From Gammaproteobacteria bacterium (GTDB lineage: Bacteria; Pseudomonadota; Gammaproteobacteria; SZUA-140): DNA of 55,461 nucleotides. The DNA is taken from positions 1 through 55,461 of the forward strand of contig JACREF010000029.1 in assembly GCA_016218365.1 (NCBI GenBank), in the 5' to 3' direction. Of the stretch, positions 44,604-47,463 are shown in pieces (the stretch's first letter is position 1; each line of letters starts with the position of its first letter). Below the pieces are notes generated by a model. It searched no databases, was not told the origin of the DNA, and was given only the letters and a program-made list of their open reading frames with translations. Made by a program: the position numbers and the translations under genes.

Positions 44604-45797
44604 TCAGCCCAGCGCGGCGAAACCGCGCTGCAGATCGCGCTGCAGGTCGGCGACGTCCTCCAGCCCCACCGCGATGCGCACCAGATTGTCACGGATGCCG
44701 GCGGCGGCCCGCGCCTCCGGCGTCAGCCGGCCGTGGGTCGTGGTCGCCGGATGGGTGATCGTGGTCTTGGCATCGCCGAGGTTGGCCGTCACCGAGATCA
44801 AGCGCATCGCATTGATAAAGCGCCACGCTGCCTCGCGACCACCGCGCAGCTCGAACGCCAGCAGGCCGCCGAAGCCGCGCTGCTGCTGCCGCGCCAGCTG
44901 ATGCTGGGGATGGGTCTCCAGCCCGGCATAATAGACCCGTTCGACCGCCGGCTGGCCCTCGATCCAGCGCGCCAGCTGCAAGGCGGTTTCACTGTGGGCA
45001 CGCATCCGCAGCTGCAATGTCTCCAGACCTTTAAGCAACACCCAGGCATTGAACGGGCTCAGGCAGGGGCCGGCGGTGCGCAGAAAACCGTAGATCTGCT
45101 CGCCGACCAGCGCCTGGCTGCCGACCACCGCGCCGCCCAGACAGCGTCCCTGGCCATCGATGTATTTGGTTGCCGACAGCAACGAGATGTCGGCACCATG
45201 GCGCAATGGCTGCTGCAACGCCGCGGTACACACCGTGTTGTCGACCACCAGCACGGCGCGATGGTCATGCGCCACCTGCGACAGCGCGCGCAGATCGACG
45301 ATCTGTGCCAGTGGATTGGCTGGCGTCTCGACAAACAGCATCCGGGTCGACGGGCGCAACGCCGCGCGCCAGGCCTCAAGATCGGTCAACGGCACATAAC
45401 TGGTGTCGACAGCAAAGCGCCCCAGATAGCTGTTGAACAACACTGCAGTGCTGCCAAAGATGCCGCTGGACGCAACGATGTGATCACCGGCCTTCAGCAG
45501 CCCCATGCAGGTCACCAGGATCGCCGCCATGCCGGATGACGTGGCCACGCAGCGTTCGCCCTCCTCAAGCGCCGCCAGCCGCTGCTCGAACATCGCCACC
45601 GTCGGGTTGGTAAAACGCGAATAGACATTGCCGGGCTGCTGCCCGGAAAAACGCGCCGCGGCCTGCTCGGCACTGGCAAAGACAAAACTGGAGGTGGTGA
45701 AGATCGGTTCGGACTGCTCACCCTCGGCAGTGCGACGCTGCCCGCTGCGCACCCCGCGGGTGGCCATGCCCCAGGAACCCTGCTCGGAATCACTCAT
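44604..45797 (-). CDS. metZ: O-succinylhomoserine sulfhydrylase
   Basis: PLP enzyme that joins O-succinylhomoserine and sulfide to make homocysteine for methionine synthesis. It has 397 residues from the ATG at 45797, which follows GAGAGGAGAG; an in-frame codon at 45812 is less supported. The PLP Lys is K211 in SATKYIDGQG. VYSRFTNPTVAMFEQRLAALE and TSSGMAAI (near 87) are Cys/Met-metabolism signatures; GRCLGGAVVG follows the Lys. A promoter and SAM-II riboswitch lie directly upstream, and the glycerate kinase gene follows by 14 nt. Confidence 0.96.
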   Translation of the reverse strand: MSDSEQGSWGMATRGVRSGQRRTAEGEQSEPIFTTSSFVFASAEQAAARFSGQQPGNVYSRFTNPTVAMFEQRLAALEEGERCVATSSGMAAILVTCMGLLKAGDHIVASSGIFGSTAVLFNSYLGRFAVDTSYVPLTDLEAWRAALRPSTRMLFVETPANPLAQIVDLRALSQVAHDHRAVLVVDNTVCTAALQQPLRHGADISLLSATKYIDGQGRCLGGAVVGSQALVGEQIYGFLRTAGPCLSPFNAWVLLKGLETLQLRMRAHSETALQLARWIEGQPAVERVYYAGLETHPQHQLARQQQRGFGGLLAFELRGGREAAWRFINAMRLISVTANLGDAKTTITHPATTTHGRLTPEARAAAGIRDNLVRIAVGLEDVADLQRDLQRGFAALG

Positions 45798-45823
45798 GCT
45801 CTCTCCTCTCACAGATGTGACAG

Positions 45824-45860
45824 CGGGCCGAGTTGGGGCTGCAGTACGGCAGCCGGCCCG
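45824..45860 (-). promoter_or_regulatory. Riboswitch expression-platform hairpin before metZ
   Basis: Minus strand: CGGGCCG (45860-45854) pairs with CGGCCCG (45830-45824), enclosing GGCTGC (45854-45849) with GCAGCC (45842-45837). Its first four bases are the last four of the SAM-II pseudoknot strand, so aptamer and hairpin cannot form fully together. No T-run follows. A second small hairpin, TCACA/TGTGA (45820-45809), touches the ribosome-binding site. Confidence 0.6.
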
Positions 45861-45908
45861 GTTTAGCTGTATTTGTTATGCGCCCGCAAGCTGAGTCAAA
45901 TCGGCGCA
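45857..45908 (-). promoter_or_regulatory. SAM-II riboswitch aptamer
   Basis: Binds S-adenosylmethionine and lowers expression of methionine-synthesis genes. Minus-strand reading: P1 5' strand TGCGCC (45908-45903), loop GATTTG (45902-45897), TTGC in the second loop (45889-45886), P1 3' strand GGCGCA (45884-45879), then AAAT (45874-45871), AGCTAAA (45868-45862) and GGG (45859-45857). Lengths and conserved blocks match the 52-nt SAM-II core known from metA/metX leaders: the GATTT triplex strand, TTGC, and GCTAAA pseudoknot strand all align without gaps beyond one loop base. The aptamer starts about 5 nt after the predicted transcript start. Confidence 0.87.
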
Positions 45909-45919
45909 CTGAAAGCCTG

Positions 45920-45948
45920 ATATTAAGAAGCGCCGCTCACACTGTCAA
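45920..45948 (-). promoter_or_regulatory. Near-consensus promoter for metZ
   Basis: Minus strand: -35 TTGACA (45948-45943, exact consensus), 17-bp spacer, -10 TAATAT (45925-45920). Predicted start near 45913, immediately before the riboswitch, so metZ is transcribed separately from purF upstream. Confidence 0.8.
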
Positions 45949-45951
45949 CCG

Positions 45952-47463
45952 TCACTGCGAGTTGTGCAGATCGATGATATCGGCGTTGCGACTGGCCCGT
46001 TTGCCCTTGGCATCGTCCGAGCGCTTGCGGGCCAGCGAGGCCAGGTAATCGCCCTGCACGTCGCCGGTGACATATTCACCATTGAAACATGAGGTGTCAA
46101 AGCGGGTGATCGACGGATTGTCCTCGCGCACCGAGGCGATCAGATCGTCGAGATCCTGATAGATCAGCAGATCGGCGCCGATCAGCTTGGCAATCTCCTG
46201 CTCGCTGCGCTGGTAGGCCACCAGCTCCTCGACCGTCGGCATGTCGATGCCATAGACATTCGGAAAACGTACCGGCGGCGCCGCCGAGGCGAAATAGACC
46301 TTGCGGGCACCGGCCTCGCGCGCCAGCTGGACGATCTGCTCGGAGGTGGTGCCGCGCACGATCGAGTCATCAACCAGCAACACGTTCTTGTCCTTGAACT
46401 CCAGCTCGATGGCATTGAGCTTCTGGCGCACCGACTTCTTGCGCTCCTTCTGTCCCGGCATGATGAAGGTACGACCGATATAACGGTTCTTGATGAAGCC
46501 CTCGCGATAATCAACCCCCAGCGAGGTGGCCAGCGCCAGTGCAGCGGTACGGCTGGTGTCCGGGATCGGTATCACAACATCGATGTCATGACGCGGATAC
46601 AGGCGGCGGATCTTGTCGGCCAGTCGCTCGCCCATGCGCAAGCGGGCGCGATACACCGGAATCCCGTCCAGGATGGAATCGGGACGCGCCAGATAGACGT
46701 ATTCGAAAATACAGGGCGAATACTGAGGATTGTCGGCGCACTGCTGGGTATGCAGCTCGCCGTCCAGCGTGATGTAGATGGCCTCGCCGGGTGCGACATC
46801 ACGGATCAGATGGAAACCCAGTACATCCAGCGCCACACTCTCCGATGCGATCATATACTCCGGACCCTGATCGGTATCACGCTTGCCAAACACCAGCGGC
46901 CGGATGCCATAGGGATCACGGAAACCGACAACGCCATAACCGGTGATGACGGCAATCGCCGCATAGCCGCCGCTGCAGCGCCGATGCACCTGACGGACCG
47001 CTGCAAAGATGTCCGTCGCGTCGATCCGCAGCTTGTTCAGCGCCTGCAGCTCATGGGCAAAGACATTGAGCAGGATCTCGGAATCGGAATCGGTATTGAT
47101 ATGGCGCCGGTCCTCGCGAAACAGTTCGTGCTTGAGCTGGGCGGCATTGACCAGATTGCCGTTATGGGCCAGCGCGATGCCATACGGAGAATTGACATAA
47201 AACGGCTGGGCCTCGGCCGAGGTCGAGGTACCGGCGGTCGGATAGCGTACATGGCCGATGCCGACATTGCCGTGCAGATTGATCATGTGCGCGGTATTGA
47301 AGACATCACGCGCCAGACCATTATCCTTGCGCAGAAAGAAACGCTTGTCCTCACAGGTGACGATCCCGGCCGCATCCTGACCGCGGTGCTGCAACACCGT
47401 CAGCGCATCATAGATCGCCTGATTGACCGGACCCTTCTGAACCAACCCGACAATACCGCACAT
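45952..47463 (-). CDS. purF: Amidophosphoribosyltransferase
   Basis: First committed enzyme of purine synthesis: PRPP plus glutamine gives phosphoribosylamine. It has 503 residues. The N-terminal nucleophile is Cys2 of MCGIVGLV. The class II amidotransferase domain runs to about 235. The phosphoribosyl-transferase domain has the PRPP loop [13 protein letters not shown] and GYIK-type [14 protein letters not shown]. It lies 29 nt behind cvpA; the metZ promoter begins just behind its stop. Confidence 0.98.

Follow-up and report, generated by a model that had tools for sequence, protein, structure and literature searches.

Much of the literature, like the name of the Rfam family, treats riboswitches of the SAM-II class as an alphaproteobacterial device. 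In the SAM-II crystal RNA, U11 of loop L1 faces the sulfonium of SAM, and the base triples include U11-A45-U21, U12-A46-U20 and G8-C23-G42 (PMC3764141). A promoter hugging helix P1 is usual for the class (Corbino 2005, PMC1273637). SAM-II elements outside the Alphaproteobacteria were reported in 2005-2007 (Corbino 2005, PMC1273637; Barrick & Breaker 2007, PMC2258182), the later study placing them in Gammaproteobacteria and Bacteroidetes and describing terminators in alpha- and betaproteobacteria; the novelty that a sequence-only reading of the present locus attached to a SAM-II outside the Alphaproteobacteria was therefore overstated. Two further elements come from similar loci. The metXZ RNA of betaproteobacteria, found before metX or metZ, was called novel and was described as a pseudoknot with a terminator, built of six conserved blocks of which 1 pairs with 4 and 2 with 6; the same study reported SAM_alpha only in Rhizobiales and Rhodobacterales (Leyn 2014, PMC4239095). 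Bp2_Cand287_SIPHT, now Rfam family RF02424, precedes methionine genes and has purF, metZ and metX as neighbors (Khoo 2012, PMC3521395). We found no paper that joins a SAM-II subtype, the metXZ RNA and RF02424, a weak negative from a search mostly without subscription papers.

The window analyzed here is a whole stretch of 55,461 nucleotides, positions 1-55,461 of the forward strand of contig JACREF010000029.1 (assembly GCA_016218365.1), from a Gammaproteobacteria bacterium of lineage SZUA-140. We consider it highly probable that it carries a SAM-II riboswitch of a widespread gamma- and betaproteobacterial subtype, with its own promoter just after purF and with metZ as its target. The intergenic gap between purF (45952-47463, TIGR01134 at 531 bits) and metZ (44604-45797), both on the minus strand, reads promoter and then aptamer. 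Curated protein models confirm the proposed target as O-succinylhomoserine sulfhydrylase, a product of 397 amino acids from the ATG at 45797 that scores 664 bits against NF006003 (cut-off 522) and 560 against TIGR01325 (cut-off 510). A likely Shine-Dalgarno sequence, AGGAGAG, precedes it at 45801-45807, and 60 nt separate metZ from the 3' edge of the aptamer. A search of the source genome for MetJ found none.

An exact TTGACA -35 hexamer (45943-45948, minus strand) is followed, after a 17-nt spacer, by the -10 hexamer TAATAT (45920-45925), which ends 11 nt before P1; the promoter scan, which also picked out both hexamers, returned one site in the 901 nt scanned against 0.3 expected. The metZ leader has the promoter of its own that had been read there. 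Described as strong in that reading, it is near-consensus, at 10 of 12 positions, with 4 of 6 in the -10. Upstream of P1, 80% of 81 leaders of the subtype have a promoter-like pair that matches in 9 or more of 12 positions, compared with 7% of shuffles, and the -10 mostly ends 5-12 nt from P1.

The aptamer core spans 52 nt (45857-45908, minus strand) and reads, from 45908 to 45857, TGCGCC GATTT GA CTC AGCTTGC G GGCGCA TAAC AAAT ACA GCTAAA CC GGG. The order of parts is intact: a 6-bp P1, GAUUU, CAGCUUGC, AAAU, GCUAAA and a 3-pair P2a. P1, supported by covariation, is formed by TGCGCC (45903-45908) and GGCGCA (45879-45884). L1, GAUUU (45898-45902), corresponds to G8-U12 of the 2QWY crystal RNA; the P2b strand AGCUUGC (45886-45892), near-invariant in the alignment and including TTGC at 45889-45886, holds U20, U21 and C23; AAAU of L3, placed by alignment, lies at 45871-45874; and GCUAAA (45862-45867, within AGCTAAA at 45868-45862) corresponds to G42-A47. 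P2a pairs CUC (45893-45895), set by the 2QWY register and by covariation of columns 24-26 with 65-67, with GGG (45857-45859) as C-G, U-G and C-G, making a short helix of three pairs, one of them G-U. Every part that the sequence-only reading had named (P1, GATTT, TTGC, AAAT, AGCTAAA and GGG) is present. The bases of the SAM pocket, G8, U11, U12, U20, U21, C23, G42, U44, A45 and A46, are all in register in the window, where the letters of 2QWY are those we take it to have and agreement was checked at the published triple positions only. Of the near-invariant core positions, all but one are kept; the exception is the base after GCUAAA, C in the window where G is usual. By likeness to U47 of SAM-V (PMC6061858), the U44 equivalent in GCUAAA would pair with the adenine of SAM, and the A45 and A46 equivalents would sit in the U-A-U triples (PMC3764141).

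When 801 nt around the locus were scanned at a relaxed threshold, RF00521 (SAM_alpha) matched positions 45842-45917 of the minus strand end to end (model positions 1-79) with 33.8 bits and E 9e-6. The gathering score of this model is 36 bits, so the test that the sequence-only reading had set for itself narrowly fails, and for the same reason an Rfam scan of the whole window at curated cut-offs listed nothing. That cut-off is a convention of the database and no biological feature of the class. The match to SAM-II is beyond chance: over the whole genome the locus has an E-value of 5.9e-6, and the next-best place scores 19.9 bits, about 14 bits lower. Those weaker matches, at or below 19.9 bits, were considered as a second SAM-II element in the source genome and were read as unrelated sequence.

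Elements like this one are common in the lineage. Among 80 metZ homologues, 25 have the element upstream and none was detected in the other 55; purF lies directly upstream in 20 of the 25, and in the other five it was not found within the retrieved stretch and may lie elsewhere in the genome. RF00521 passes its cut-off in 7 of 29 relatives and reaches E <= 0.01 in 13. R1 is a covariance model built here from 30 of these aptamers, and its E-values are rough; the 70.7 bits that it gives the window aptamer come from a sequence in its training set. Across 369 genomes drawn over class Gammaproteobacteria, taken in the GTDB sense with beta included, R1 matched at E <= 1e-3 in 180 (about 159 at E <= 1e-9), compared with 117 for RF00521 at E <= 1e-3 and 30 (8%) at its cut-off. 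Genomes drawn from the phylum outside the class carry mostly the alpha type, with about 46-88 bits by RF00521 and mostly below 43 by R1; gamma/beta-type elements show the reverse, high by R1 and low by RF00521. The R1 type also occurs outside the class in some genomes (G388, G394 and G611), of which G388 and G611 carry the alpha type too. A longer P2a was rejected as a clean subtype marker, as in a fixed register some alpha loci gave 5-6 pairs and others 1-3, in part through a shift of one base in some of them; the published 5-bp figure is used instead.

MetZ-like proteins follow 73 of 89 leaders, a biased count in which many loci were fetched through metZ. Five distinct loci (L147, L113/L148, L114, L127 and L105) have metK downstream, and metF (L158), metN (L130) and metX (L212) are further targets. 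Together with metZ, these are the genes that a SAM sensor would be expected to control. The literature searched yielded no earlier report of SAM-II before metK.

Copy number and targets vary in places. Tandem aptamers about 110 nt apart occur at L120 (1515-1694), L139 (1387-1566), L104 (1424-1602) and L103 (1520-1709), the second copy differing compensatorily, for example with P1 AUCGCC/GGCGAU and P2a AAC/GUU, and having no terminator. A MoxR-like AAA+ ATPase follows those of L120 and L139, and small proteins with no Pfam match follow those of L104 and L103, in neither case with an obvious methionine link. Ten R1 matches in G262 (L202-L206) and six in G374 look like expanded copy number; several precede proteins with no evident methionine role, such as an HD-type hydrolase-like protein, and an unknown protein lies downstream at both L202 and L203.

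Covariation was assessed in an almost gapless alignment of 81 distinct aptamers that was fitted to P1 and not to P2a. Over the six pairs of P1 and the three of P2a, 91.4% of cells are paired, compared with 84.8 in shuffles, and 17 further pair types are seen. Changes on both sides of a pair occur in 49 cells, compared with 19.4 in shuffles; none of 500 shuffles reaches 49, and structures slid along the alignment give 0-19. Compensatory change in P1 among relatives, which the sequence-only reading had named among its tests, was found in three of six pairs across the 81 sequences, and in P2a as well. P1 is 96.7% paired. Its outer pair carries most of the signal (AU, CG, GC, UA, UG and GU), two sequences have UA in place of the inner CG pair, and variation in the second pair is seen in the tandem copies; three P1 pairs never vary and so are neutral on the stem, speaking neither for nor against it. 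In P2a, 80.8% of cells pair, less well at the outer pair: C26-G65 is fixed, 25-66 appears as UA, UG, AU and CG, and 24-67 is weak. Despite the missed cut-off, this comparative evidence, namely the association with metZ, the compensatory changes and the other met-gene targets, settles the predicted identity of the element as SAM-II. The gammaproteobacterial setting claimed for it is supported too. The window element very probably senses SAM.

The expression platform is where the window departs from its relatives. After the aptamer, 73 of 83 distinct elements have an intrinsic terminator with a U-run, and 78 of 83 have a GCUUU-type arm able to pair with GCUAAAG; the 5' arm of the terminator is typically the 3' arm of the antiterminator (CCUGCUUUAGC ... 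GCGGGUUUUUU). In these relatives GCUAAAGCGAGG would pair with the downstream CCUGCUUUAGC as an antiterminator when SAM is absent; with SAM present the GCUAAAGCGAGG strand would be held in the pseudoknot and a CCUGC...GCGGG-UUUUUU terminator would form. Because the two arms coincide, a pseudoknot held by SAM would favor termination, giving an OFF switch. The window leader, searched for an intrinsic terminator, has neither one with a U-tract nor a GCUUUAGC arm. Folding places there, where relatives have the antiterminator and terminator, a GC-rich two-step hairpin (45860-45824, minus strand) of 6+6 pairs, with no U-tract after it, whose 5' arm contains the 3' strand of P2a. The loss concerns the platform and not the aptamer. 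The folding energy of the leader is unremarkable (z -0.7), and base pairing between the P2 strand CUCAGCUU and the start codon of metZ, considered in the minimum free energy fold, was rejected because 63 of 1000 shuffles do equally well. Four other leaders (L019, L089, L109 and L110) also have no clear U-tract terminator, so that platform change extends beyond the window. In the proposed mechanism SAM would bind the pseudoknot (P1 plus P2a/P2b with U-A-U triples) and high SAM would lower metZ expression; with the platform gone in the source genome, the GC-rich hairpin would still compete for the P2a 3' strand. Since there is no terminator platform, any control would have to be translational, Rho-dependent or otherwise non-intrinsic. 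The direct SAM feedback on metZ put forward from the sequence is a prediction, as are SAM binding and repression of metZ.

Other readings of the element concern its class and its strand. SAM-V has the same pseudoknot core, with a 2-bp P2a (PMC6061858), and so shares with the window element the SAM-binding core and a short P2a. SAM-V also has a P3 and sequesters the Shine-Dalgarno sequence, however, and neither the SAM-V nor the SAM/SAH model matched the window at E <= 10, against the end-to-end match of RF00521; RF01726, the long-loop SAM-II model, gave 16.9 bits. That the element is SAM-V, SAM/SAH or another riboswitch instead of SAM-II is accordingly very improbable. The working strand could in principle be the plus strand, with an sRNA of the Bp2_287 family that acts in trans or as antisense, for RF02424 matches 45816-45908 of that strand with 26.3 bits and E 9e-4, below its cut-off of 70 bits, and a Burkholderia transcript was detected by RT-PCR (Khoo 2012, PMC3521395). 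That RT-PCR, from oligo-dT cDNA as described, does not fix the strand, and the authors' own proposal was a cis element belonging to methionine genes (PMC3521395). Reverse-complemented, the RF02424 consensus itself gives the aptamer core, GCGTC-GATTTGA..CAGCTTGCG-GACGC..CAGCTAAAGC; in 185 genomes all 34 RF02424 matches lie opposite an R1 match, none of them reaching the RF02424 cut-off; and the promoter and the U-tract terminator both lie on the strand of the met genes. We give the sRNA reading scarcely any weight. From these sequences, RF02424 appears to model the wrong strand, the SAM-II subtype being its reverse complement. No member above the RF02424 cut-off was found in two genomes of the family of G172, and the strand question also arises at loci L101-L130.

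Two further alternatives accept a SAM-II aptamer. For its origin both horizontal transfer and an ancestry wider than assumed had been offered, and the latter is favored. SAM-II was first found in Alphaproteobacteria, and transfer was proposed for the sporadic gammaproteobacterial cases (Barrick & Breaker 2007, PMC2258182). Against recent transfer of an alphaproteobacterial control region stand the opposite score patterns of the two types under RF00521 and R1, the co-occurrence of both in some genomes outside the class, and the presence of the subtype in about half of the genomes sampled from the class with its purF-metZ position maintained; with 180 of 369 genomes carrying it, transfer into the source genome is unnecessary, and we judge it highly unlikely. 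It is less improbable, though still unlikely, that the aptamer is a relic whose terminator platform was lost, leaving metZ constitutive or controlled otherwise. The missing terminator and GCUUUAGC arm, set beside their frequency among the 83 elements, speak for a relic, and no element was detected before metZ in several genera of the same family or before the closest metZ homologue (L009), so loss does happen. The near-invariant core is nevertheless kept save for one position, P1 and P2a still pair, and the -35 and -10 are intact; a relic with about 24 conserved bases would be expected to have decayed at some of them.

The SAM-II class was already known; it is commoner in this lineage than annotations say, and the unusual feature of this locus is its replaced platform. 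Our sample suggests that nearly half of the class carries the subtype, against 8% detected by RF00521 at its cut-off. We put at about even the broader proposal that the short-P2a subtype is an old, common and mostly unannotated SAM sensor of Gammaproteobacteria in the GTDB sense, one that unites the metXZ RNA, so far unassigned, and a mis-stranded RF02424, and that the terminator here has been replaced by a hairpin acting through translation or Rho. Subtype identity would give the metXZ element a hypothetical ligand, cast doubt on the strand assigned to an Rfam 'sRNA' family, and offer a SAM sensor to genomes that have no MetJ, such as the source genome.

Set against the known systems, the window element shares with SAM-II of RF00521 and 2QWY the H-type pseudoknot with 6-bp P1, GAUUU, UUGC, AAAU and GCUAAA in identical spacing, methionine genes as targets, a promoter a few nucleotides before P1 and, in most relatives, a terminator platform. 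The subtype differs in a P1 almost fixed as NGCGCC/GGCGCN; in a loop of GAUUUGA, a short variable stretch and then UCAGCUUGC; in a P2a usually of 2-3 pairs, compared with 5 in most SAM-II (PMC6061858); and in scores usually below the RF00521 cut-off; the window element also has no terminator. The metZ riboswitch of S. meliloti likewise precedes metZ, but has an alphaproteobacterial aptamer and a predicted SAM-dependent terminator that the window lacks (PMC9373788). Bp2_287 has the same type of locus, with purF, metZ and metX as neighbors, but its Rfam entry is an sRNA gene assigned to the opposite strand. The metXZ RNA, compared by description, fits the subtype in P1, P2, genes and taxa: both stand before metX or metZ, form a two-helix pseudoknot of conserved blocks and are followed by an antiterminator and terminator, and the subtype is carried by the betaproteobacterial metZ loci L051 and L088 and by the metX leader L212.
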